Virus record (IMG/VR): IMGVR_UViG_3300025695_000110
Span: 1 to 21,891 of that record
Length of the DNA stretch: 21,891 nt
From: a virus
Reading direction: 5' to 3' (one strand)
Of the stretch, positions 1,463-20,034 are shown one piece after another; the stretch's first letter is position 1; each line of letters starts with the position of its first letter. A program made the translations under genes and the position numbers. The notes below the pieces were generated by a model that was not told the origin of the DNA, ran no database searches, and was given only the letters and a program-made list of their open reading frames with translations.

Positions 1463-3232
1463 TTAAAGTATTATACTCCATGTACCTTTTGGATAATAGC
1501 CGTCAATGCTCTCAATCCACATATTATCGTTGTACACATACTGAACACCTGTATTGAGATTTGTTACAAATACCGGATCTATAAATTCACTAGCATCGTA
1601 TATAACTTGCCATTTAGATCCTGTCCATTCAACTATATCATTTTCATCAGCAAAGAAATCTGTTCCGTCTGTATTTTTCCAAGCATCTGCACCATCGTCA
1701 TTAAAATGCAATATATATTGTACTTTATTATCTGGAGTTACATTTTCGTCAAGTATAATTGATATTTGATTACCAATATTTTGTAAAGATGCACTAACAC
1801 TTTCTCCGTCAACGGTAACCTCTATACTTGTAACTTTATCTGCTAACCACCAAGATTGTTGATAAAAATATAATTTTTCCTCATCAGTCTTATAAAATAA
1901 ATCGTTTTTGTTTGGAGAACTAGGAAACGATATTCCACTGTCGACTCCGGCTGGTTTTTCTATATTGTTAATATAATAATCTACATATGTATCAATTCTG
2001 TTAGTAGTGCCTTGCGGTGTAATGTTTCTAACAGCAGCATTACCAATTGCATCTAGTACCAATAATCTAGCACCTGAAGTTTTTACACTTGTAGGATTGA
2101 ATGATCTAGGATTAATCACATAATCTACAGTTCCGTATTGAGTAGGATTTCGTGCCGGTCCTTCTATTAAAGTATTACTAGGCAGTGTATCTTCGTCGTA
2201 TGTAATATACAATGAAGTTGAATCATCTGGATCAATTTCGATTGTGCCTCTTACATTAGTGCTAAAATACGTTCTGCGTAATTCTATTTGACTAATGCCT
2301 GGTTCGTACTGCGCCGGCAATTCAGCTTCGACTACATCGATCCAGTGTGCATCTGGCGCGAATAATAATTTATTTGTAGCTAATTTTGCTAACGAGTCAG
2401 TAATATTAATACCATACTGTCTATACGATGTAATATGTGGATTAAGTTGAATACCTAGCCCTGTTTCACCGGTAGATTGCCCTGGTAGATATCCTTCTGG
2501 TGTTAATGCTGCTTCACTATCTGGATTAGGAGTAAAGCCGTCAAGCTCTATTGTACCTGTATCAGTATTAATAATACCTGTAACGATTTTTGTAATAATG
2601 CCCATTTTCTTGACCTTTGCAGGCGGCGAAATATAAATTGGCGCAGTAAATGACATTGTACAAATATCAATTTCGCTTTCAGTTCCAGCAGGAATACTTC
2701 TTGAACTAAATGTCATACTATCCATAAACAATGTTGTTAAACTAGTCCAGTCGACATAATTGTCGTTAGTTTGGAATTCTAAACTAGGATTAAACAACAT
2801 CAATATTTGTTCAAGTATTTGTAGTTTTTGATCTGTGCTTGTACTCCATAAATCAACATTTACACTTAACGTAAACGGATTAGGATGCAAGCGTTCAACA
2901 GTGTATCCTTTGGCTTGTGATGCTAGATAACTATTTGTTTCACTATCAAATTCTTTTTCTCTTAAATTTACTTTACTAACAAAACTACTATCGCTTGTAC
3001 GTGTACGATCCATTTCTAAACCGGTAATATAAACAGCCATACGCGGCGCACTAGGAATCTTGTTTTCGCTGTTGTCACGCATAATACTAGCAACTTGTCT
3101 AGTTAAATCTCCATATGCTACCGGAACTTGACGTAAATCACCGTCTCCATCTTTGTAACTAAAATTACTAAATGCTCTAACAATTTGCGTTACATATCTT
3201 CTTACTTGACCGTCATAAAAATATTGCATCAA
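1463..3232 (-). CDS. 15: Tail sheath stabiliser / tail terminator gp15, with long C-terminal extension
   Basis: In T4, gp15 forms the hexameric ring that caps the tail tube and sheath and joins the tail to the neck. The first ~215 residues follow T4 gp15 as recalled: YFYDGQVRRYVTQIVRAFSNF at the N-terminus, an RQVPVAYGD strand, a segment like MAVYITGLEMDRTR, then PNPFTLSVNVDLWS and ILEQILMLFNPSLEF. T4 gp15 is about 272 residues; this one is 589. The extra ~350 residues are beta-rich and include NDLFYKTDEEKLYFYQQSWW, a motif also found in gp14 and gp18 here, and end in further aromatic stretches (VEWTGSKWQVIYD, YNDNMWIES). The start overlaps the gp14 stop as ATGA, indicating translational coupling. 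Confidence 0.85.
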   Translation of the reverse strand: MMQYFYDGQVRRYVTQIVRAFSNFSYKDGDGDLRQVPVAYGDLTRQVASIMRDNSENKIPSAPRMAVYITGLEMDRTRTSDSSFVSKVNLREKEFDSETNSYLASQAKGYTVERLHPNPFTLSVNVDLWSTSTDQKLQILEQILMLFNPSLEFQTNDNYVDWTSLTTLFMDSMTFSSRSIPAGTESEIDICTMSFTAPIYISPPAKVKKMGIITKIVTGIINTDTGTIELDGFTPNPDSEAALTPEGYLPGQSTGETGLGIQLNPHITSYRQYGINITDSLAKLATNKLLFAPDAHWIDVVEAELPAQYEPGISQIELRRTYFSTNVRGTIEIDPDDSTSLYITYDEDTLPSNTLIEGPARNPTQYGTVDYVINPRSFNPTSVKTSGARLLVLDAIGNAAVRNITPQGTTNRIDTYVDYYINNIEKPAGVDSGISFPSSPNKNDLFYKTDEEKLYFYQQSWWLADKVTSIEVTVDGESVSASLQNIGNQISIILDENVTPDNKVQYILHFNDDGADAWKNTDGTDFFADENDIVEWTGSKWQVIYDASEFIDPVFVTNLNTGVQYVYNDNMWIESIDGYYPKGTWSIIL

Positions 3233-4398
3233 TTATCTGCCTTTGCTCTGAGAGCTTTACTTAATGCTTGTCTTTCTACAACATCTTCACCGCTTATTTC
3301 GTTGACTGTTGTATTATTAACAAACGTTCCTAGTTGTGTATTTCTGGTATCTGTATTTGATAATTCTGCTCTAACATTATCTTCTACTTTAATCCAGCCG
3401 CTTCCGCTGTATCTAAATAATCTATTAGGCAATAAATCAGTTCTTAGATAGTAATCGCCTTCCTCAGACAATTGAGGAAATCCTGAACCTACACCAAATG
3501 GTGCTCCGTTAGGAGGAATACCATCGCCTACTAAGTATCCAAGATATCCACTTGAAAGCGGCGTTTGAAAAACTATATCAGCAGTAATACCACTTGATGC
3601 ATCTATATCGTCTATGTCTACACTTACCAAACTAACACTTGCATCATCATTAACTTGAACTGTATAGAACTGTTGAGTTGAATATCCTGCATATTTTACA
3701 TCGTTGTTTGCTTGTGCTATTACTGCATTATTAATTTGCATTTCTTTTTCAAATGTAGACATAATATCTCTAAGAGTTTTGTCAGAATTTTCAGCAGCAG
3801 GCAAATCTAAAATATCTTTGTATTCCTGACCGTCATAAATTTGTTTTACTTTTAATCTGTAAAGATGTGGGTACCACGTTTGACTAAAGCCTTCGCTGGC
3901 TCTTGTAATATCCTCAATTACATAAAATCTTTTAAGTGCAATTTCTAAATCATTTGCTGCATATTCGTCAATCATATGAGGCAATTCAATTACATCTCCG
4001 GGCATAAGTTTTCTGCCTATTGTTTTAACACTACTGTTTATATGAACGGTAAGAAACAATGTGTCGTTGCTAAGAAAAAGACCAAATTGACTTAAATCAA
4101 AATCGTTGTCTTGAACGTTGTAATGTCCTCTAAGCACATAAACGTCTTTGTCATATTTTCTATCTCTGTTTTCAAGAAACAATAAATCTTGTATATTTGT
4201 TTCTTTAACAGAATCATATTGTGGTTGATCTGCGGTAGAATCAGCATCATCAGGATTTTTAGGCCCGATGTATTTGTGTATTACAAAATCCGTCCCGCCA
4301 ACTGTAAACATTTCATAGATAGTATTATCTAGAAATGTATAATCTTTTGATTTGTGTGGTCTATATAAACTTAGCTTTGGCATACGTATATTTAGCAT
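3229..4398 (-). CDS. 14: Neck protein gp14
   Basis: gp14 builds the phage neck between portal and tail. Evidence is the marine T4-like N-terminus (PKLSLYRP..KDY.F), the segment FGLFLSNDTLFLTVHINSS followed by GRKLMPGDVIELP and FYVIEDITRASEGFS...YPHLYRLKV, which matches the gp14 core, and its place immediately before gp15. At 389 residues it exceeds T4 gp14 (about 256). The additional C-terminal part contains GDYYLRTD...LFRYSGSGWIKVED (residues ~312-340), a module shared with gp15 and gp18. The ATG at 4398 lies 3 bases after an ATAAGTA box; an in-frame ATG at 4383, giving MPKLSLY, is at least as likely a start. Neither has a Shine-Dalgarno. It is divergent from gp13. Confidence 0.82.
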   Translation of the reverse strand: MLNIRMPKLSLYRPHKSKDYTFLDNTIYEMFTVGGTDFVIHKYIGPKNPDDADSTADQPQYDSVKETNIQDLLFLENRDRKYDKDVYVLRGHYNVQDNDFDLSQFGLFLSNDTLFLTVHINSSVKTIGRKLMPGDVIELPHMIDEYAANDLEIALKRFYVIEDITRASEGFSQTWYPHLYRLKVKQIYDGQEYKDILDLPAAENSDKTLRDIMSTFEKEMQINNAVIAQANNDVKYAGYSTQQFYTVQVNDDASVSLVSVDIDDIDASSGITADIVFQTPLSSGYLGYLVGDGIPPNGAPFGVGSGFPQLSEEGDYYLRTDLLPNRLFRYSGSGWIKVEDNVRAELSNTDTRNTQLGTFVNNTTVNEISGEDVVERQALSKALRAKADN

Positions 4399-4403
4399 AA
4401 ATA
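4397..4403 (+). promoter_or_regulatory. Late-promoter-like box ATAAATA before gp13
   Basis: ATAAATA lies 16 bases before the gp13 ATG, with the Shine-Dalgarno GGAGA at 4409-4413 between them. It matches the core of the T4 late promoter TATAAATA and overlaps a minus-strand ATAAGTA box (4402-4408) facing gp14, so the two divergent promoters would share bases. Confidence 0.55.
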
Positions 4404-4408
4404 CTTAT
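4402..4408 (-). promoter_or_regulatory. Late-promoter-like box ATAAGTA before gp14
   Basis: The minus strand reads ATAAGTA then TTT then the ATG at 4398. It overlaps the ATAAATA box that faces gp13 by two bases. If it works like T4 late promoters, transcription would start at or inside the first codons, which would favour the second ATG at 4383. Confidence 0.35.
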
Positions 4409-4419
4409 GGAGACAAACT

Positions 4420-5178
4420 ATGAGCAATACTACTGCATACCAAGAAATTTATGATTATGTTGAAACCTTTTTAGGCGGAGGCATGATCGATGTTGAATTA
4501 GATCCTATACATTATAAAACTGCATTAAGTAAATCTTTAAACAGATATCGTCAAAGAACTGAAAACAGTGTTGAAGAAAGTTACATTACTATTGCATTTG
4601 AACAAGATAAAAATGAATATACATTGCCTCAAGAAATTATTGAAGTGCGTAAAATTTATAGACGAAGTGTTGGTAGTAGATTAGGTGGAAGTGCTGACGG
4701 CGGTAGTTTGTTTGAACCATTTAACCTAGCATATACAAACACATACTTGTTAGCAGGCAGTGGTATAGGCGGTCTTGCTACATATGATATGTTTGCACAA
4801 CAACAAGAATTAGTAGGTAGAATGTTTGGATCGTTTATTGAATTTACATGGAATACTAGTACAAAAAAATTAACTATACTACAACGACCAAGAACAGATG
4901 AAGAAGTACTATTATGGTGTTACAATTATCGTCCCGACTTTGAATTGTTAAAAGATTATAAAGCAAATCAATGGGTAAAAGATTATACACTTGCAAGTTG
5001 TAAATATATGCTAGGGGAAGCTCGTAGTAAGTTTAGTACTATTGCAGGCCCTGGAGGCGGCACTACACTTAACGGTGACACACTGAAATCTGAAGCTCAA
5101 CAGGAAATGGAAAAACTAGATAACGAACTAGCAACAGCAATGGCTGGTGGCACAGGCTATAGTTTTATTATAGGTTGA
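4420..5178 (+). CDS. 13: Neck protein gp13
   Basis: gp13 is the head-completion/neck protein that joins gp14 at the portal end. The 252-residue product has the features recalled for marine T4-like gp13: an N-terminal helix (YDYVETFLGGGMIDVELDP), a strand region EYTLPQEIIEVRKIYRR, and a conserved C-terminal half with FTWNTSTKKLTILQRP, WCYNYRPDFELL and WVKDYTLASCKYMLGEARSKF, ending in a glycine-rich tail. It is shorter than T4 gp13 (about 309). It starts with a clear GGAGA Shine-Dalgarno 6 bases before the ATG. It lies back-to-back with gp14, whereas in T4 genes 13-14-15 run in one direction. Confidence 0.83.
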   Translation: MSNTTAYQEIYDYVETFLGGGMIDVELDPIHYKTALSKSLNRYRQRTENSVEESYITIAFEQDKNEYTLPQEIIEVRKIYRRSVGSRLGGSADGGSLFEPFNLAYTNTYLLAGSGIGGLATYDMFAQQQELVGRMFGSFIEFTWNTSTKKLTILQRPRTDEEVLLWCYNYRPDFELLKDYKANQWVKDYTLASCKYMLGEARSKFSTIAGPGGGTTLNGDTLKSEAQQEMEKLDNELATAMAGGTGYSFIIG

Positions 5179-5201
5179 CAAATGCCTGATCCTATTATAA
5201 T
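5175..5201 (+). promoter_or_regulatory. Sigma70-type promoter for the dNMP-kinase-like gene
   Basis: A perfect -35 TTGACA (5175-5180) is followed by a perfect -10 TATAAT (5196-5201). The 15-base spacer is short; TAATAT at 5198-5203 gives 17. The -35 overlaps the gp13 stop. Transcription would start around 5208, at the ATG (5210), and no Shine-Dalgarno is present, so the message may be leaderless. A host-polymerase (early) promoter fits a nucleotide-metabolism gene among late genes. Confidence 0.6.
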
Positions 5202-5209
5202 ATAATAAT

Positions 5210-5713
5210 ATGAAGAAAAAGTTATTGGTTATTGGCCACGGCCGACATGGTAAAGATACTGTGTGCGAAATATTACGTGATAAGTATGAATATAGTTTTG
5301 AGAGCAGTTCAAAGTTTTGCTCCAAGTTGTTTATCTACGAGCAGTTAAAGGACAAATATGGATACGATAATGAAGAACAGTGCTACGCTGACAGGCATAA
5401 TCACAGAGCAGAATGGTATGATGCTATCTGCAATTATAATATTCCTGATGCAGCGACTTTAGGAAGGGAAATGTTTGCAGCCTACGATATTTATTGTGGG
5501 CTTCGTAACAAGCGTGAATTTTTTGCTATGCAAAATACTGGCGTGTTTGATTATGTTATTTGGGTAGACCGTAGTATGCACCTTCCTCCTGAGTCAAAAG
5601 ACAGTATGAGTCTTGAACAATGGATGGCCGATTTTACAATTGATAACAATGGAACATTAGAAGAATTAGAATTTAATATTGATCAATTATATAGTTCTAA
5701 GTTAAATGCGTAG
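5210..5713 (+). CDS. Deoxynucleoside monophosphate kinase-like P-loop protein (gp1-like)
   Basis: The protein opens with a beta strand and P-loop, KLLVIGHGRHGKDT (Walker A GHGRHGKDT at residues 9-17), the form seen in phage dNMP kinases of the T4 gp1 type, which phosphorylate dNMPs to dNDPs for DNA synthesis. A second strand FDYVIWVDRS (around residue 115) looks like the Walker B/LID region. It has 167 residues against about 241 in T4 gp1, so it is a short version, and the specificity is uncertain. It stands alone between gp13 and gp18 with its own TTGACA/TATAAT promoter. Another P-loop kinase function is possible. Confidence 0.72.
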   Translation: MKKKLLVIGHGRHGKDTVCEILRDKYEYSFESSSKFCSKLFIYEQLKDKYGYDNEEQCYADRHNHRAEWYDAICNYNIPDAATLGREMFAAYDIYCGLRNKREFFAMQNTGVFDYVIWVDRSMHLPPESKDSMSLEQWMADFTIDNNGTLEELEFNIDQLYSSKLNA

Positions 5714-5736
5714 ATAATAGTCCAAAACCACCAATT

Positions 5737-5785
5737 TCTCCTCTGATCAGCTAAATAATAGTAGAAAGTATTACCCATGAGGAGA
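5737..5785 (+). promoter_or_regulatory. gp18 leader: anti-Shine-Dalgarno pairing element
   Basis: TCTCCTC (5737-5743) is exactly complementary to GAGGAGA (5779-5785), the gp18 Shine-Dalgarno. The late box CTAAATA lies between the two arms. RNA reading through from dNMP kinase could fold and hide the ribosome site, while RNA started at the late box would lack the 5' arm. Confidence 0.5.
5751..5757 (+). promoter_or_regulatory. Late-promoter-like box CTAAATA before gp18
   Basis: CTAAATA is one base off ATAAATA and is preceded by the palindrome CTGATCAG. It lies 35 bases before the gp18 ATG, leaving room for the strong Shine-Dalgarno GAGGAGA. Late promoter function is inferred from position. Confidence 0.45.
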
Positions 5786-5792
5786 CAAAGCA

Positions 5793-8700
5793 ATGGCACT
5801 AACATCACCTGGTGTTCAGGTTAGCGTAATAGACGAGAGTTTTTATACTCCGGCTGAACCTGGTACAACACCTATTATTTTTGTAGCAACAGCCGAAAAC
5901 AAACTAAACGGCGGCGGCACAGGTATAGCACCTGGTACATTAAAAGAAAACGCAGGTAAAGTTTACCTGATGACATCGCAGAGAGATCTAGTTGAAACAT
6001 TTGGAGATCCGACATTTATTACTGACGTAAATAATAATGTTGTACAAGGCGGTGAACAAAACGAATACGGATTACAAGCTGCATATAGTTATCTAGGCGT
6101 AAGCAATAGATCATATGTAGTAAGAGCAGACATTGACTTAAATAGTTTAAATGCAAGCTCAACACCAACAACTGCAAACCCAGAAGATGGTACATGGTGG
6201 CTAGATACACAAACAACAGAATGGGGCATTTTTGAATGGGACGGATCGGCTGCTACAACCGAAACCGGTCAAACATTTATCGCAAAGACTCCACGAGTAA
6301 TTACAAATGCTACTGACTTAATTGGCGGTGATGCAACTAACGCTCCTGGTAGCTGGGTTGGACAAAAAGGCGATTATGCAATAGTCGCAGTAACTAATGT
6401 AGTAAAATACTATTATAAAAATGTTAACGACAATTGGGTTTTAGTTGGCTCTCCAGACTGGAGTTCAAGTATTCCAACAGTTGAAGGTACAAATGCAATC
6501 AGTTCTACAATTGGAAACATTGGTGATACTTTCGTAATCAATGCTAGTGACAGCAGTGCCGAATCAGTACAAATTACTCTTACAGGAAACACATTAACAA
6601 GTCTAGTAAATGATATTAATAATGCAGCTATTGGTGGTGTGACAGCAGAAGCAAGAAACAACAAACTTGTATTATTAAATGATCGTAGCACAAGTGATAC
6701 AATCCAATTAGTTGACGGCGCAGGAACTCCTCTTTCAGCAGCTGGTATTGAAGAAGGATTTTATCTTGCTCCAAAAGCACAAATCAGTAAGCACACTGAT
6801 GTTCCTCTTTTTAAAGAAAACGACGACGATACTCGTCCAAGTGGAAGTGTTTGGATTAAAACAACAACACCAAACCTTGGTGCTGACTGGAGAGTAAAAC
6901 AGTTTAATGGCGAAACTGAAATTTGGAACAGAGCAGTATCTCCAATTTATAATTCTAATCACAGCGCAATTTACGCACTTGATAGATCAGGCGGCGGAGT
7001 AAATATTCCAGTTGGTACAGTGTTTATTCAGTCAAACGCAATCGAAAATGTAAACGACAATGCTAACTTTAAAGTCTTTGTAAAACGTGCAGGCGGCGCA
7101 ACTACAATTACTAGTAATAAAATTACTGCATCAACGTTTGCAGGTGGTTCTTACAATATAACACTACAAGAAAGTTTAAAATCTCAAGAAGCACTAGACA
7201 CAGCAAAAACAATAAGTTTTACAGCAGCAGGCCAAGCATCGGACGCACAAGAAATGGCAGCAGCAATTAACGCAGCTGGATTTACTAACGTTGTTGCAAG
7301 TGTTGATTCTCAAAATAGAATTACTATTTCGCATACAGTAGGCGGAGAAATTAGATTAACTGATACAGATAACGCATTTACATTTGCTGGATTTACTCCT
7401 TATAATGCAACTGCAAAAACTGGTACACAAAATCTTTATTGGCAGCCGGGCGAAACAGATAGCGACCCAGAGAAGCTATTAATTAGTCTTTGGTCTCCTT
7501 TAGTTTATACTGCAAGTGAAGATGCACCAACCGCATTAGCAGCTGACGGCGCATTATGGTATAGTAGCACAATTGACGAAGTTGATGTACTAGTACACAA
7601 CGGCTCAAACTGGGTTGGTATTAATCACTCGTCAAGCCCATATTATAATGTTGATAGTGCTCAATCACCAGATCCAGAAGGGCCGATTGTTAGTGCATCT
7701 GAGCCAGGCAACGGCGATCGTTCAGATAGTGGCAATTTAGTAACTGGCGACATTTGGGTTAGTACAGCAGACTTAGAAAATTATCCACAAATATACATTT
7801 ATAATGCTACACTAGCAAAATGGGTATTAATTGATAGTACAGATCAAACTACAGAAAATGGTATCCTATTTGCAGATGCACGTTATAATACAAGTGGAGC
7901 AAACAGTGGCGAAGCTGGCGATATTGTAGATCTAAGAACAAGTAACTATTTAGATCCGGATGCTCCAGATCCTGCACTATATCCAAAAGGTATGCTGTTA
8001 TGGAACTTACGTAGAAGCGGATTTAATGTAAGACGTTTTGAGCGTAATTATATTGATGTAAATGCTGATAACGAGCGTAACGGCGACGAAGCAATGGACG
8101 CATACTACCCACACCGTTGGGTAACTGAATCAGCTAACCAAGCAGATGGTTCGGGTACATTTGGACGTAAAGCACAGCGTAAAGTTGTTGTACAAGCATT
8201 ACAATCAATGATTAATAGTAATCAAGACATTAGAGACGACGAATCAAGAACATTTAACTTAATTGCATCACCAAGTTATCCAGAACTAATTGGCGAAATG
8301 ATTAGCTTAAACTTTGATAGAGGTTTAACTGCTTTTGTTGTAGGCGATAGTCCAATGAGACTTACTCCAGATGCAACTAGTTTAGAAAATTGGGCAACCA
8401 ACGTTGAACTAGCAGTTGAAGATAACGCAGACGGATTAGTAAGTCGAGACGAATACTTAGGTGTTTATTATCCAGCAGGATTTACAAGTGATAATGTAGG
8501 TAATAATGTTGTTGTTCCGGCATCGCATATGGTACTACGTACTTTTGCACTAAATGACCAAGTTGCTTATCCGTGGTTTGCGCCAGCAGGTACAAGACGC
8601 GGCGGAGTTACAAATGCTTCAAGTGTAGGTTATATTAACAACGAAGACGAATTTGTAAGTATTGCACTAAACGAAGGACAACGTGATACATTGTACAGAA

Positions 8701-9104
8701 ACAATGTTAACCCAATTACGTTCTTAAATGGCGCAGGACTAGTTGTATTTGGACAGAAAACTCGTGCAAGAAACGCAAGTGCATTGGATAGAGTTAATGT
8801 TGCAAGACTAGTTGTATACTTACGTAGTCAGTTAAATCAACTTGCAAAACCATATCTATTTGAACCAAATGATAAAATCACACGCGACGAAATCAAACAG
8901 CAAGTAGAGAGCTTAATGGTTGAGCTAGTAGGACTAAGAGCACTATATGACTTCCTAGTTGTATGTGACGAAACTAATAATACACCGGCAAGAATTGACA
9001 GAAACGAGCTATATGTAGATATAGCTATCGAACCTGTAAAAGCAATTGAATTTATTTACATTCCGTTGCGTATTAAAAACACAGGAGAGATCGCAGGTCT
9101 ATAA
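5793..9104 (+). CDS. 18: Tail sheath protein gp18, enlarged by a repeat-rich insertion
   Basis: This is the contractile sheath subunit that surrounds the tail tube. The N-terminus MALTSPGVQVSVIDESFY and the C-terminal ~400 residues (FNLIASPSYPELIGEMISLN, GLTAFVVGD, YPWFAPAGTRRGGV, DTLYRNNVNPITFLNGAG, GQKTRARNASALDRVNVARL, a final AIEFIYIPLRI strand) are typical of T4-like sheaths. T4 gp18 has about 659 residues; this has 1103. The excess lies in residues ~130-690, a beta-rich region with four copies of a W-containing unit (residues 132-153, 350-381, 585-611 and 651-682). Such insertions would face outward on the sheath (inference). It has a strong Shine-Dalgarno, GAGGAGA, and a late box, as expected for an abundant protein. 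Confidence 0.95.
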   Translation: MALTSPGVQVSVIDESFYTPAEPGTTPIIFVATAENKLNGGGTGIAPGTLKENAGKVYLMTSQRDLVETFGDPTFITDVNNNVVQGGEQNEYGLQAAYSYLGVSNRSYVVRADIDLNSLNASSTPTTANPEDGTWWLDTQTTEWGIFEWDGSAATTETGQTFIAKTPRVITNATDLIGGDATNAPGSWVGQKGDYAIVAVTNVVKYYYKNVNDNWVLVGSPDWSSSIPTVEGTNAISSTIGNIGDTFVINASDSSAESVQITLTGNTLTSLVNDINNAAIGGVTAEARNNKLVLLNDRSTSDTIQLVDGAGTPLSAAGIEEGFYLAPKAQISKHTDVPLFKENDDDTRPSGSVWIKTTTPNLGADWRVKQFNGETEIWNRAVSPIYNSNHSAIYALDRSGGGVNIPVGTVFIQSNAIENVNDNANFKVFVKRAGGATTITSNKITASTFAGGSYNITLQESLKSQEALDTAKTISFTAAGQASDAQEMAAAINAAGFTNVVASVDSQNRITISHTVGGEIRLTDTDNAFTFAGFTPYNATAKTGTQNLYWQPGETDSDPEKLLISLWSPLVYTASEDAPTALAADGALWYSSTIDEVDVLVHNGSNWVGINHSSSPYYNVDSAQSPDPEGPIVSASEPGNGDRSDSGNLVTGDIWVSTADLENYPQIYIYNATLAKWVLIDSTDQTTENGILFADARYNTSGANSGEAGDIVDLRTSNYLDPDAPDPALYPKGMLLWNLRRSGFNVRRFERNYIDVNADNERNGDEAMDAYYPHRWVTESANQADGSGTFGRKAQRKVVVQALQSMINSNQDIRDDESRTFNLIASPSYPELIGEMISLNFDRGLTAFVVGDSPMRLTPDATSLENWATNVELAVEDNADGLVSRDEYLGVYYPAGFTSDNVGNNVVVPASHMVLRTFALNDQVAYPWFAPAGTRRGGVTNASSVGYINNEDEFVSIALNEGQRDTLYRNNVNPITFLNGAGLVVFGQKTRARNASALDRVNVARLVVYLRSQLNQLAKPYLFEPNDKITRDEIKQQVESLMVELVGLRALYDFLVVCDETNNTPARIDRNELYVDIAIEPVKAIEFIYIPLRIKNTGEIAGL
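6186..7838 (+). repeat. Four diverged W-rich units inside gp18
   Basis: Units lie at 6186-6251 (DGTWWLDT...FEWDGSA), 6840-6935 (SGSVWIKT...KQFNGETEIWNRA), 7545-7625 (DGALWYSS...VHNGSNWVGIN) and 7743-7838 (TGDIWVST...IYNATLAKWVLI). The shared pattern is G-[DS]-x-W-[hydrophobic]-x-[ST], a gap, then aromatic-x-[NG]-rich turn and W. The DNA itself is diverged, so the repeats are old. Confidence 0.6.
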
Positions 9105-12006: not shown

Positions 12007-12498
12007 ATGACTAAAAAATTAGAAGACATGTTAAACTTGCCAGATAATAAAGACCTTATTGCAGAAACTAAAAAAGAAGAAGCAATAGTTGAACAGGAAA
12101 GTACATTTAGAGATATAGAAGAGTTTGATAAGATTACTAGTGCATTGCCGGCAGTCAAAGGATTAGGCGAATTAGCCGACAAAGAGTTAAACGAAGTTGC
12201 AGATAAAGCAATGGCAGCATACGACGATTTGATGGACTTGGGAATGAACGTTGAAAGTCGTTATAGTGGTAGAGTTTTTGAAGTAGCAGGTACAATGCTA
12301 AAAACTAACCTAGATGCTAAAGTTGCTAAACTAGATAAAAAACTTAAAATGGTTGAGCTACAACTTAAAAAACAAAAGATGGATCAGGACGGATCTAATA
12401 CTAATGGTGATATTGTTAACGGAGATGGTTATGTAGTTACTGATCGAAACAGTTTACTACAAAAACTCAAAGGCCTTGACACAGATGGTAATAGTTGA
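12007..12498 (+). CDS. 16: Terminase small subunit gp16
   Basis: gp16 forms the ring that recognises DNA and stimulates the gp17 packaging motor. The 163-residue product has the expected central antiparallel helices: NEVADKAMAAYDDLMDLGMNVESRYSGRVFEVAGTMLKTNLDAKVAKLDKKLKMVELQLKKQK, where YSGRVFEVAGTMLKT corresponds to the conserved PRAYEVAGQLIKT-type core of T4-like gp16. The N-terminus is acidic and probably disordered; the C-terminus (after ~140) is a short linker plus LLQKLKGLD helix. Length equals T4 gp16 (about 164). In T4, genes 16 and 17 are adjacent, but here five genes lie between them. The 3' end overlaps the sulfotransferase-like gene. Confidence 0.85.
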   Translation: MTKKLEDMLNLPDNKDLIAETKKEEAIVEQESTFRDIEEFDKITSALPAVKGLGELADKELNEVADKAMAAYDDLMDLGMNVESRYSGRVFEVAGTMLKTNLDAKVAKLDKKLKMVELQLKKQKMDQDGSNTNGDIVNGDGYVVTDRNSLLQKLKGLDTDGNS

Positions 12499-13063
12499 AA
12501 ATAAGTTTACATTTGTACATATTAGAAAAACAGCTGGTACTAGCGTAAGATCTTGGATTATAAATAATTTTAAAAACCATACTAGTGTTGACAACTGGCA
12601 TATCACGCTTCAAGAAGCATCTAATCAAGGATATAAAAACTTTGGCTGGAAATTTTGCGTAGTAAGAAATACATTTGACAGATTGCTAAGTCATTACAAC
12701 TTTCAAAAAGATAGACATTATTTTAAACTACAATCATTGGAATATAAAGATGACTGGGAAAATTTAAAAAACAAAACTAATATATACCAACATGGATTTG
12801 AGTATTGGTACGATAAACAAATAGATAACGGTCATTATTTTACACAACTGAAATATAGCTGTGATTGCGATTATATACTCAAGTTTGAAAAGTTGTCAAG
12901 TAACTTTCGATACATACAATGGTTAACCGGATGTAAAAGTTCTTTGCCGTTTTTAAATAACACTCTGCATAAAAGTTATATAGACGTTTATACAAGTAGT
13001 TTAATTTCTAAAGTAAAAAAACACTATGCCGAAGAACTTGAAACTTTTAAATATACTTTTTGA
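12485..13063 (+). CDS. Sulfotransferase-like protein
   Basis: Residues 9-18 (FVHIRKTAGTS) match the 5'-phosphosulfate-binding loop of the Sulfotransfer family, and FCVVRNTFDRLLSHYNFQK (around residue 58) matches the 3'-phosphate-binding VRNPxDRxxSxY segment. Known members move sulfate from PAPS to sugars or other acceptors; the phage substrate is unknown. With 192 residues it is a compact version. I choose the ATG at 12485; a TTG at 12476 would add three residues. It begins inside the 3' end of gp16 (overlap 14 bases, different frame), so its translation is probably coupled to gp16. Its TGA is followed at once by a late box. Confidence 0.75.
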   Translation: MVIVENKFTFVHIRKTAGTSVRSWIINNFKNHTSVDNWHITLQEASNQGYKNFGWKFCVVRNTFDRLLSHYNFQKDRHYFKLQSLEYKDDWENLKNKTNIYQHGFEYWYDKQIDNGHYFTQLKYSCDCDYILKFEKLSSNFRYIQWLTGCKSSLPFLNNTLHKSYIDVYTSSLISKVKKHYAEELETFKYTF

Positions 13064-13655: not shown

Positions 13656-14573
13656 ATGTTAACAGAACAAGAGATCTTACAAGAAAAAGAACAACTTAAT
13701 GAGGTTGCACCATTACTAGCATTTTTGTTTGGTATATTTGCAAAAGCAGGTTACGACAGAAACCAGGCAGCACAAGCAGCTAGAGCAGCAGCCGCAGCAG
13801 CAGAACAACAAGCACCAGGCGCTGCTACCGCTGTAACACAAACTGGACAACCAAATCCACAAGCAGCCGCAGGTAACGGTAATGGATATATTTTAGACAA
13901 TAGAGAACGTATTACTAGAGGTCCTCGTGTTAGTGCGATGCAAGCAGCATTAGGAATGCCATCTAATGAACAAGATGGTATGTTTGGTCCTAAGACTACA
14001 GCAGCAGTAAAAGAATTTCAAAGGTCTATGGGACTAAGACAAGATGGTATTGTAGGTCCTAACACAATGGCAGCAATGCAAAGAAGAGCTGCAAGTGCAG
14101 GAGAAACACCAGGTAATCCAGTTGATGACGGTGGATTAGGTCAACGTCCGTACCAATACGCAAGTAAAGAAAATACAGGAAATAAAATGAACGAAGAAAT
14201 TACAATTTCAGGAGATGCAGAATCGTTAATACGTATGATGCAACTTGCCGGCGCCGACGGTGCTAAGGCAGTAGACGCTGGCGATATTAGCCAAGGTTCA
14301 AAACCTTGTTCGGCTTGCGGAGAAGTACATAGTGAACATGGGTGCGGAAATCGCAATGGCGATCTTGCACGTAGTATTGCAATGATGGCAGACGAAGACT
14401 GGGATAATTCGCCAGACGAAGATATTAAAGATTTTGAAGCAACTCCGCCTACAAATGATTTAAATAAAGCTAAAAAATCATATCCAAAAGTTGCTGGTGG
14501 AGATAATCCAATGGCGTTAGAAAATAATCTACGTGCTAAATTATCAGATGCACTTGCTAAAAAGAAAAAATAA
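13656..14573 (+). CDS. Head-associated-like protein with peptidoglycan-binding domain and Cys/His cluster
   Basis: 305 residues in four parts. (1) N-terminal helix with several possible gp21-type sites (LTE at 2-4, LQE at 8-10, LNE at 14-16), then an Ala/Gln-rich stretch (35-75). (2) Residues ~88-145 look like a PG_binding_1 domain: GPRVSAMQAALGMPSNEQDGMFGPKTTAAVKEFQRSMGL, then QDGIVGPNTMAAMQ. (3) EITISGDAESLIRMMQLAG, a motif recalled from other marine T4-like virion proteins, followed by C218-x2-C221-x3-H225-x2-H228-x-C230, a likely zinc site. (4) an acidic linker and the C-terminal NPMALENNLRAKLSDAL. It has a strong AGGAGG Shine-Dalgarno. No catalytic lysin domain is seen. A virion role is inferred. 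Confidence 0.6.
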   Translation: MLTEQEILQEKEQLNEVAPLLAFLFGIFAKAGYDRNQAAQAARAAAAAAEQQAPGAATAVTQTGQPNPQAAAGNGNGYILDNRERITRGPRVSAMQAALGMPSNEQDGMFGPKTTAAVKEFQRSMGLRQDGIVGPNTMAAMQRRAASAGETPGNPVDDGGLGQRPYQYASKENTGNKMNEEITISGDAESLIRMMQLAGADGAKAVDAGDISQGSKPCSACGEVHSEHGCGNRNGDLARSIAMMADEDWDNSPDEDIKDFEATPPTNDLNKAKKSYPKVAGGDNPMALENNLRAKLSDALAKKKK

Positions 14574-14633: not shown

Positions 14634-15233
14634 ATGAAAAATTATATTGTAAAATCACCCGGACGCACAGGAAGTATATATATAGCACAATGGCTTGCAA
14701 AAAATCAAGGATGCATATATCTTAGTACACACGATAATGACTTTTATAAAAATTTACACCAACATAATATAGTTAACAAAACTCCTGTTGTATTACACGA
14801 CCATTACGACTTTGTGCCTTTACGTCCAAATGATTGGGTGTTAGTATTAAGTGACCGGCGTAATAAATTTGACGGAATACTAAGTTGGATTATTGCAGAA
14901 AAAACTAAAAACTGGTCAAAGTACGAACAATATCCAACATCTGTTACAATTAATTTTGCTGACGTTCAAGAAAAACATATAGGACGTAGGAGCAAAATTA
15001 ATGCTGATCATATAGTTGCAAGTACGCATTTGTGGTACGGTGTACACAAAATATATCAAGAAGATATAAGCAACGAATATCTAAAAAAACAATTTAGTTA
15101 TAATAAATTCGAACCTGTGTATAGTAAATATAATATTACTAATCATCGCAGTCCGTACAACAAGAAACAATATGTTACCAATTATTGGGAATTAAAAAAA
15201 CAATACAGGAAATGGTTAAAGCATGGAGTATAA
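14634..15233 (+). CDS. Second sulfotransferase-like protein
   Basis: 199 residues beginning MKNYIVKSPGRTGSIYIAQWL, where SPGRTGS resembles the phosphosulfate-binding loop of sulfotransferases, and later DWVLVLSDRRNKFDGILSWII, which resembles the second (3'-phosphate) motif RxxxFDxxxSW. HLWYGVHKIY further on fits a helix. Both motifs are looser than in the gene at 12485, so the family call is tentative. It lies just after a terminator with only 15 bases before its ATG and no Shine-Dalgarno or clear ATAAATA box, so its expression signal is not evident; low-level read-through is possible. The composition is very A+T-rich (many AAT, AAA, TAT codons), like the SGNH pair further on. Confidence 0.5.
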   Translation: MKNYIVKSPGRTGSIYIAQWLAKNQGCIYLSTHDNDFYKNLHQHNIVNKTPVVLHDHYDFVPLRPNDWVLVLSDRRNKFDGILSWIIAEKTKNWSKYEQYPTSVTINFADVQEKHIGRRSKINADHIVASTHLWYGVHKIYQEDISNEYLKKQFSYNKFEPVYSKYNITNHRSPYNKKQYVTNYWELKKQYRKWLKHGV

Positions 15234-18643: not shown

Positions 18644-18658
18644 GTGTATGAACACTAT
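18641..18658 (+). promoter_or_regulatory. Hairpin presenting the start codon in its loop
   Basis: ATAGTG (18641-18646) and CACTAT (18653-18658) are perfect inverted repeats; the six-base loop TATGAA holds the ATG at 18648-18650. No Shine-Dalgarno is present. A second in-frame ATG follows at 18657. Confidence 0.4.
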
Positions 18659-19346
18659 GTATGTATACGGTGATAGCTTCTCTGATCCTAATCACAAGTT
18701 TGGTGTAGTAAAACCATATTTTTGGATTACTGAATTAGAAAAATATTTTGAAGTACATAATTTTTCTATAAAGGGATCAGGTCCGCAATACCAACTTAAT
18801 TGTTTAATCAATACTATTGAAAATACCGATCCTTCAAAACTTAAACAAAGCAATATGATATTTTTTATGTCTGACATTAATAGACACTGGTGGAATTTTA
18901 TGGAACCGTCAGACCAGTACCTTTATGCACCTATTTTATTTAATCATAAAGCTAATACCAAAGAAGCTGCTGAAAAAATTTTAAAATATAGATCATATAA
19001 AGAATGGTTAAAAAACTATGACCGATATACAGGAATGTCTGAAAATTACAATATAACAAATGTTATTAATAACATATATGCTTTTAGTAAGTTTTTTAAT
19101 AAAACATTATTTTGGCCTATATTTAATAATGTTCCTGATTATTTAAAAAAATATAATACTAGAGAATTTAATATAGTACCTAAATTATTAAACGATATTA
19201 GTAGTAACGAAAAGATATCAGATAATCAAAAAAACATGCACTTACATAAAAAAAATCATTTAATTATGCAAGATGAAATATATTTATGGATGAAAAAGAA
19301 TTACACGATAAATGTAAAAAACTTTAAGGGTAATATAGATGAGTAA
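18648..19346 (+). CDS. SGNH-hydrolase-like protein, copy 1
   Basis: 232 residues. MYVYGDSFSD (catalytic-type Ser10) is the GDS block I of SGNH/GDSL hydrolases, and IKGSGPQYQLN corresponds to the Gly block. FFMSDINRHWW takes the place of the GxND block. At the C-terminus MHLHKKNHLIM aligns with CPNHLSLKNHKIM of copy 2, but the acidic residue that precedes the His in copy 2 is a Gln here, so activity is uncertain. Family members remove acyl or acetyl groups from sugars or lipids; the target is unknown. It overlaps copy 2 by 8 bases and is clearly its paralogue (same GDS, GSGPQ, and FF.SD landmarks in order). Very A+T-rich. Start could also be the ATG at 18657. Confidence 0.6.
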   Translation: MNTMYVYGDSFSDPNHKFGVVKPYFWITELEKYFEVHNFSIKGSGPQYQLNCLINTIENTDPSKLKQSNMIFFMSDINRHWWNFMEPSDQYLYAPILFNHKANTKEAAEKILKYRSYKEWLKNYDRYTGMSENYNITNVINNIYAFSKFFNKTLFWPIFNNVPDYLKKYNTREFNIVPKLLNDISSNEKISDNQKNMHLHKKNHLIMQDEIYLWMKKNYTINVKNFKGNIDE

Positions 19347-20034
19347 ACCTTTACTTTGGATACTTGGCGATAGTTATGGAGAAAATGTTAAATCAATCTC
19401 TAAATGGAAAAATATGTGGACATGGCCACAAGAAATTACTAGGATATTTGATGTTGAAAATTTTGCAATAGCTGGATCGGGTCCACAAACACAAATAGAA
19501 TATTTTTTAAATAATGCAAAAGATAGAGAATTAGAATACTGTTCGGATATTAATGTAATATTTTTTGTAAGTGACCCAGCACGAATAAATTTTAATTTTT
19601 ATCAAACACCTTTTCATCAGACTTATCCAAAAGTATTATTAGACAACCCAACCAAAATAGAACTTGATTGGAAAGAATATTATAAAGATAAAAATAAATT
19701 TATTATGAATTACTTTAAGTATATTGATATTATGCCAGTATACGAAACAGAAAAGTATATATCTATATTAAAAATGTATAGTAAGTTTTTTAAAAAAATT
19801 CTTGTGTTTAATTGTTTTCAGTATACAGACGATACTCTAGCAACAAGCATAAATGATGAAAAATTTCATCTTATTAACAATCCAATGATTAATATTAATA
19901 ATGATCCTGAAAAGTTTTTTGATTGTCCTAATCATTTAAGTTTAAAAAATCATAAAATTATGTACAGTCAGCTCGTTGGACATTTTTTAAACAATCAAAA
20001 TCTAATGCATCGTAAGTTTTTGAGAAATGATTAA
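19339..20034 (+). CDS. SGNH-hydrolase-like protein, copy 2
   Basis: 231 residues with block I LWILGDSYGEN (Ser12), FAIAGSGPQTQIEYFLNNA as the Gly block, VIFFVSDPARINF in the third position, and FDCPNHLSLKNHKIM near the end, where Asp and His could complete the catalytic set. This copy keeps more of the expected residues than copy 1, so it is the better candidate for an active esterase or deacetylase, for example on surface glycans (inference). No signal peptide is visible, so it would act in the cytoplasm or in the virion. It begins within copy 1 with an AAGGG Shine-Dalgarno in that gene's last codons, implying coupled expression. Confidence 0.65.
   Translation: MSKPLLWILGDSYGENVKSISKWKNMWTWPQEITRIFDVENFAIAGSGPQTQIEYFLNNAKDRELEYCSDINVIFFVSDPARINFNFYQTPFHQTYPKVLLDNPTKIELDWKEYYKDKNKFIMNYFKYIDIMPVYETEKYISILKMYSKFFKKILVFNCFQYTDDTLATSINDEKFHLINNPMININNDPEKFFDCPNHLSLKNHKIMYSQLVGHFLNNQNLMHRKFLRND

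Follow-up and report, generated by a model that had tools for sequence, protein, structure and literature searches.

Three virion proteins encoded in a 21.9 kb window of viral DNA (the whole stretch analyzed, 21,891 nucleotides, a fragment of the IMG/VR virus IMGVR_UViG_3300025695_000110) carry short tryptophan-rich (W-rich) segments, and the explanation we favor, with somewhat more confidence than doubt, is that these segments are copies of one widespread, mobile module that is retained in phage particles as a structural joint. The proteins are a gp14-like protein, gp15 and the tail sheath protein gp18. As judged from its sequence, the module would comprise the six segments recognized originally and at least one additional copy in gp15, would be about 33 residues long and would have the consensus [AF]PSxPxxGDLWYDTxxxxLxVYxGxxWV.

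Relatedness of the W-rich segments

The original observation that gp14, gp15 and gp18 together contain six W-rich segments was accurate as to both their presence and their locations. The gp14 segment includes GDYYLRTD (3436-3459) and FRYSGSGWIKV (3385-3417), the gp15 segment NDLFYKTDEEKLYFYQQSWW (1847-1906), and the four gp18 motifs start at 6186, 6843, 7548 and 7746 (in m1, m3, m4 and m5, respectively; Table 1). Are these segments related to each other, as was also proposed? We aligned about 70 distinct homologs of each protein, drawn from viral contigs and phage records, and built one profile hidden Markov model (HMM) per segment. The gp14 and gp15 segment HMMs matched each other, with family-wide best E-values of 6e-7 and 2e-7 (best shuffled sequence, 0.02), and profile-profile comparison with hhalign linked gp14 to gp15 (97%), m1 to m4 (95%) and m3 to m5 (95%), with ten module pairs outscoring every one of 680 control comparisons.

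An external profile made from 24 modules of unrelated virion proteins, with no gp14, gp15 or gp18 sequence among them, gave the same picture, as every one of its top six matches to the window's gp14, gp15 and gp18 falls on a module site: gp15 432-464, gp14 304-339 and gp18 575-611, followed more weakly by gp18 643-681, gp15 528-544 and gp18 122-155 (E-values, for a three-sequence search space, are in Table 1). Among the relatives it reached E<0.01 in 65 of 69 gp14, 12 of 70 gp15 and 20 of 70 gp18 sequences and in one of 4,180 shuffled ones, the best shuffled relative scoring 0.005 and the best reversed one 1.1 (both E-values for 209 sequences). Segment HMMs, hhalign and the external profile thus all score above shuffled, reversed or control sequences, which bears out the proposal of a module common to the three proteins. 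The external profile recovered the copies of gp14, gp15 and gp18 m1, m4 and m5, and missed m3 (6840-6935). Beyond the original six, a copy was detected at gp15 aa (amino acids) 515-542 and, more weakly, at gp15 549-572 and gp18 186-219 (m2).

Table 1. The three virion proteins, their W modules and the optional domains of gp18 (window coordinates; external-profile E-values are for a three-sequence search space)
Feature	Position	Strand	Details
gp15, tail sheath stabilizer/terminator with C-terminal extension	1463..3229	-	588 aa; PF16724 E 1.5e-22, aa 3-222
Possible degenerate copy 15c of gp15, aa 549-572	1514..1585	-	weak: hhalign 7-37% vs generic profiles
Half-module 15n of gp15, aa 515-542	1604..1687	-	W517, D531, G537, W540 invariant; external profile E 0.012
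W module 15m of gp15, aa 431-464	1838..1939	-	lineage-specific in-frame insertion; external profile E 5e-9
gp14-like virion structural protein	3229..4398	-	389 aa; phrog_11591; PA5oct relative is a virion protein
W module of gp14, aa 304-339	3382..3489	-	external profile E 1e-7; best-modeled part of AlphaFold2 model
gp18 tail sheath protein	5793..9104	+	1103 aa; phrog_10581 E 3e-233; PF17482
gp18 m1, aa 122-155	6156..6257	+	external profile E 0.02; hhalign generic 90%, m4 95%; strands 135-138, 145-149
gp18 m2, aa 186-219	6348..6449	+	predicted as the same meander; sequence support weak (41% with the gp14 module in hhalign)
gp18 optional domain D1, ~aa 224-328	6462..6776	+	possibly flagellin-outer-domain-like; Foldseek to flagellins, probability up to 0.97 but E 0.02-0.15
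gp18 m3, aa 342-381	6816..6935	+	hhalign with m5 95%; strands 353-357, 368-372, 377-381
gp18 optional domain D2, aa 405-535	7005..7397	+	likely D1 paralog
gp18 m4, aa 575-611	7515..7625	+	external profile E 3e-4; hhalign with generic profile 96%
gp18 m5, aa 643-681	7719..7835	+	external profile E 0.009; hhalign generic 92%; strands 654-657, 666-671, 676-681

Predicted fold

Structure prediction with AlphaFold2 suggested a beta fold for the module, as had been anticipated, in the form of a three-stranded beta-meander with a conserved aromatic residue on each strand. In the gp14 model the module is the best part (pLDDT, the predicted local distance difference test score, of 69-76) and has predicted strands at 316-319, 326-330 and 335-340. 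For the gp18 insertion the model is good, with pLDDT of mostly 80-95 from aa 130 to 570 and lower values near m3; m2 is predicted, at pLDDT of about 90, as strands 195-198/203-209/215-217. The register of the three-stranded meander agrees between gp14 and m2, m3 and m5 of gp18. For the segments proposed originally, a single fold is predicted for gp14, m3 and m5 and matched in part by m1, in which the first two strands agree, and by m4.

Compared with predicted viral proteins, the gp14 model matched a stretch of about 40 residues in a 547-aa uncharacterized protein (root-mean-square deviation 0.5 A, probability 1.00, E 0.014) and one of similar length in a tail fiber protein (1.4 A, probability 1.00, E 0.19). 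Their length, together with where the model is confident, suggests that these matches correspond to the module.

Several observations weigh against the conclusion that all of the segments are copies of one module with one fold. Each segment is short, and the links among the gp18 copies are modest when taken one by one. The m3 segment was missed by the external profile and is linked solely through its hhalign match to m5 (95%) and its predicted strands. The generic module set was gathered in part with the pattern GDLWYDT and is biased towards it, and when GDLWYDT was masked, m1, m3 and m5 mostly lost support, with no clear excess over controls, while the gp14, gp15 and m4 segments stayed above all 44 controls. 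On the structural side, the model of gp14 is poor except in the module (overall mean pLDDT 46.6), the last two predicted strands of m4 match (599-602/607-609) while its first is of low confidence, agreement in fold was judged from strand positions in the gp14 and gp18 models only, and the Foldseek output for the gp14-model matches came without aligned positions.

Could the segments simply be generic Trp/Gly/Asp-rich beta-hairpins that resemble each other through composition, without common descent? Their short length, the weak individual gp18 scores and the near-control level of m1-m3 once GDLWYDT was masked are what convergence would produce. However, controls of the same composition, whether shuffled or reversed, fail to score, the flanks agree beyond the motif used for searching (GTSFPxSP...LYxYxGxxW in unrelated proteins), and the local structure matches of the gp14 model lie at 0.5-1.4 A, so that we consider convergence very improbable.

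A common but unannotated module in phage virion proteins

A tblastn search with the gp14 module alone retrieved a Geobacillus siphophage tail fiber and a roseophage protein, which opened a wider search. A GDLWYDT pattern scan of viral contigs returned at least 120 stretches and at least 124 protein matches, most of which, among those listed, continue with the same L-x-V-Y-x-G-x-x-W half. Multiple copies are frequent: among the matches listed, 60 of 124 carriers have two to nine copies, and two to four module-bearing open reading frames (ORFs) occur on 18 of 116 contigs. Similarly, a GDLFYRTD scan recovered GTSFPxSPxxGDLFYRTDxxxLYxYxGxxW in proteins otherwise unrelated to gp15. Collagen-like repeats rarely accompany the module (5 of 221 modules).

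Bare modules, from an alignment of 24 that included one from gp14, one from gp15 and two from gp18, matched 56 PHROG families, among them tail fiber, minor head, head-tail adaptor Ad2 and the gp14-like phrog_11591. The module is thus very common in virion proteins, mostly tail fibers, rather than the specialty of the neck and tail surface that had been envisaged, and by the criterion of sequence it is a real, unnamed and promiscuous building block of virion proteins in many unrelated phages. Modules of about 33 aa by themselves matched phrog_8309, phrog_21412 (tail fiber), phrog_13518 and phrog_211 (head-tail adaptor Ad2), and one bare module maps to positions 24-54 of phrog_8309 as well as 717-748 of phrog_21412. 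These PHROGs are whole-protein clusters, none of which defines or names the module, and whole gp14, gp15 and gp18 belong to other PHROGs.

Neither Pfam nor NCBIfam has a model for the module, and as there is no Pfam entry it goes unannotated in spite of being common. Four module profiles searched against PDB sequences produced chance-level matches only and no solved relative. Searching the literature for the motif as spelled returned no paper, and no description of the module was found among open-access papers. A practical consequence is that searches will pick up false whole-protein similarities created by the module, which links families of tail fiber, neck, sheath and minor head proteins; gp15, for instance, matches unrelated proteins at E ~1e-8 via the module alone. 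We also noted a 256-aa protein (L299, 116-883) that is otherwise unrelated to gp14 and matches phrog_11591 through the module alone. In Roseobacter phage CRP-143 (L173, 73-2421) two adjacent hypothetical proteins both carry the W module (the second with E 0.095), an independent parallel case.

Mobility of the module in gp15

The proposal that the module is mobile was upheld in gp15, as its copy 15m is an in-frame insertion in 12 of 67 gp15 homologs. In a tree built from the gp15 core, presence or absence of 15m changes twice, and since both 15m-bearing lineages have the flank KPAGV in common, a single gain with later exchange or loss is no less likely than two independent gains. In the clade of the window and in L066, the identity of 15m is ~40-64% to modules from unrelated proteins, which were chosen by an 8-residue pattern, versus 30-39% to the gp14 module, whereas the L044-type gp15 module has no clear difference in identity between the two. 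An origin of 15m by duplication of the neighboring gp14 copy is disfavored because 15m of the window's clade is closer to the modules of unrelated proteins, with the caveat that those were pattern-picked. We envisage recombination as the means by which the module moves from one virion gene to another. It is established that domains are shuffled in the virion proteins of phages, neck proteins among them (PMC10684548).

Modules frame optional domains in the gp18 sheath protein

The gp18 gene product has an insertion of about 570 aa, in which two larger domains are set among five W-like segments in the order m1, m2, D1, m3, D2, m4, m5, so that modules sit at the D1/D2 junctions. D1 and D2 are probably paralogous on the basis of their profile similarity (hhalign 70%; controls <1%). 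Flagellin outer domains were the best high-probability Foldseek matches to the gp18 model (probability 0.85-0.97), but with E-values of 0.02-0.15, and the Flagellin_IN match to D1/D2 (14.5 bits) is under the cut-off of 22.7.

D1 is absent in RaK2, PA5oct, SCTP-2 and Vibrio 2.275, and D2 in Phosso and Atu_ph07. While D1 or D2 is thus missing in six of the eight jumbo lineages compared, m1, m3, m4 and m5 are retained in all eight (m2 is partial in RaK2). The modules are also better conserved (3.06-3.42 bits) than D1 and D2 (2.50-2.65 bits), with the sheath core at 3.8 bits. In two gp18 relatives, L269 and L186, both found among the carriers from the GDLWYDT scan, the literal GDLWYDT consensus stands at the m4 position.

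Function of the module: joint, glycan binder or clamp?

What, then, does the module do? Because modules are retained when D1 or D2 is missing, and are better conserved than those domains, we infer that its role is probably that of a structural joint and not that of a glycan-binding site. As a compact, self-folding staple at domain boundaries, it would allow larger accessory domains to be gained or lost with the remaining protein undisturbed, and in gp18 the sheath insertion would have its two removable, possibly flagellin-like domains framed by m1-m5. If the joint is neutral, the module would mark insertion-tolerant sites in virion proteins and so help in understanding their evolution. A bolder extension, which we regard as doubtful, is that tailed phages have it in common as a universal, interchangeable connector, about 33 residues long, and that in the sheaths of jumbo phages these connectors are the sockets that receive or release entire flagellin-like domains, such that sheath decoration evolves by domain swapping between joints that stay conserved.

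Glycan binding had been suggested at the outset, and the module could be conceived of as a small carbohydrate-binding element whose exposed aromatics bind cell-surface glycans weakly and multivalently, as proposed for phage Ig-like (immunoglobulin-like) domains. Many carriers match tail fiber PHROGs, and some also hold CBM_4_9, CBM_5_12, Laminin_G_3, GH16 or other glycan-related domains; in L314 the module is immediately before a CBM_4_9 domain. On the other hand, the signature residues are near-invariant among gp18 and gp14 relatives, more so than the neighboring domains and unlike host-range determinants, and the module also turns up in families of neck, sheath, minor head and head-tail adaptor proteins. 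Moreover, no similarity to carbohydrate-binding modules was found for the window proteins in Pfam or for the module profiles in the PDB. Conservation speaks against the suggestion, as the modules are better conserved than the domains they flank, and the invariance of residues within gp18 and gp14 and the occurrence in neck and head families likewise make glycan binding unlikely.

A role in particle stability, also raised originally, is compatible with the data. One form it could take is that of an inter-subunit clamp that packs on a neighboring gp18, gp15 or gp14 subunit and stabilizes the assembled particle. High conservation and retention in ring- and helix-forming proteins would be expected of such a clamp, and passages of PMC9230969 suggest that extra sheath domains cement the tail. 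Yet the same module occurs in carriers of differing symmetry, tail fibers and minor head proteins among them, which makes a common binding partner unlikely. We accordingly rate the clamp as improbable, much as we do glycan binding, and retain the structural joint as the favored role.

Comparison with known phage systems

In its general kind, this unnamed module, promiscuous among virion proteins, is comparable to the phage Ig-like domains (Fraser et al. 2006, as cited in PMC9230969). Those are likewise small beta modules in unrelated virion proteins, absent from many homologs and spread by recombination. The W module differs in being about 33 residues with three predicted strands as opposed to a sandwich of ~90 residues, in having no Pfam entry and, in gp18, in being better conserved than the surrounding accessory domains. 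That the W module is itself a phage Ig-like domain (a beta-sandwich of ~80-100 residues) was rejected given its ~33 residues, three strands and lack of an Ig Pfam match. It is also distinct from the phage tail domain DUF2793 (PF10983), which co-occurs with it as a separate element in the tail fiber-like protein L317 (DUF2793 at aa 35-110, module at aa ~156-190).

The window gp18 resembles the Type 3 multi-domain tail sheath proteins of PMC9230969, with a conserved N- and C-terminal core and several added domains. The multi-domain sheaths of its close relatives Atu_ph07, SCTP-2 and RaK2 were modeled in that paper, their added domains being proposed to serve in adhesion or stability. The passages of the paper that were searched hold no description of W modules or of the exchange of flagellin-like domains.

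The core regions of T4 gp15 and gp18 (PDB 4huh, 3j2m, 9mkb) are homologous to the window proteins. The gp15 match to PF16724 (80.4 bits) is above the curated cut-off of 25, the gp15 profile matches T4 gp15 structures (E 0.001), and gp18 matches PF17482, the C-terminal sheath domain, with 60 bits (cut-off 26.9). No W module was found in T4-type gp15 and gp18, nor in gp18 of the T4-like cyanophages S-SSM5 and ACG-2014f. The claim that the module always lies in the part absent from T4 stands for gp15, whose modules are in the C-terminal part and whose T4 similarity stops near aa 222, and for gp18, in which T4 similarity spans aa 862-1092. The gp14-like protein, which also has its module in the C-terminal part, had no detectable similarity to T4 gp14 (hhalign probability 0.18%; absent among PDB profile matches). 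Its label derives from its position adjoining gp15 and from a weak match (19%) to phiM7 Hc2; the name is unsupported by T4 similarity and rests on position.

Source phage and neighboring genes

The window had been labeled marine T4-like, but the nearest cultured relatives of its sheath, gp15 and gp14-like proteins are the jumbo phages Phosso, Atu_ph07, PA5oct, RaK2, SCTP-2 and Vibrio 2.275, and not ordinary T4-like cyanophages. Judged by the relationships of these three virion proteins, the fragment derives from a PA5oct/RaK2/Atu_ph07-like jumbo phage, and that label should replace the former one. The PA5oct orthologs of all three proteins are flagged as detected by ESI-MS/MS (electrospray ionization tandem mass spectrometry), and the gene order Nudix-gp15-gp14 of the window is that of PA5oct. 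The Nudix hydrolase-like gene (1015-1449) is directly downstream of gp15; a Nudix gene adjoins the gp15 gene in PA5oct and RaK2 as well. Just upstream of the sheath gene is a deoxynucleoside monophosphate kinase-like ORF (5210-5713; IGHGRHGKDT), and an annotated deoxynucleoside monophosphate kinase is found upstream of the sheath gene in RaK2 and two genes upstream in Phosso.

Elsewhere in the window, two adjacent, paralogue-like ORFs (18648-20034; 232 and 231 aa) have GDS-type N-termini (YGDSFSDP and LGDSYGEN) and appear SGNH-hydrolase-like. Amid the structural genes, ORFs 12476-13063 and 14634-15233 have P-loop-like starts (IRKTAGTSVRSW and SPGRTGSIYIAQ, respectively) and appear sulfotransferase-like, and within the virion gene region ORF 13656-14573 has an apparent peptidoglycan-binding repeat (AMQAALGM...GMFGPKTTAAVKEFQ...GIVGPNTMAAM).

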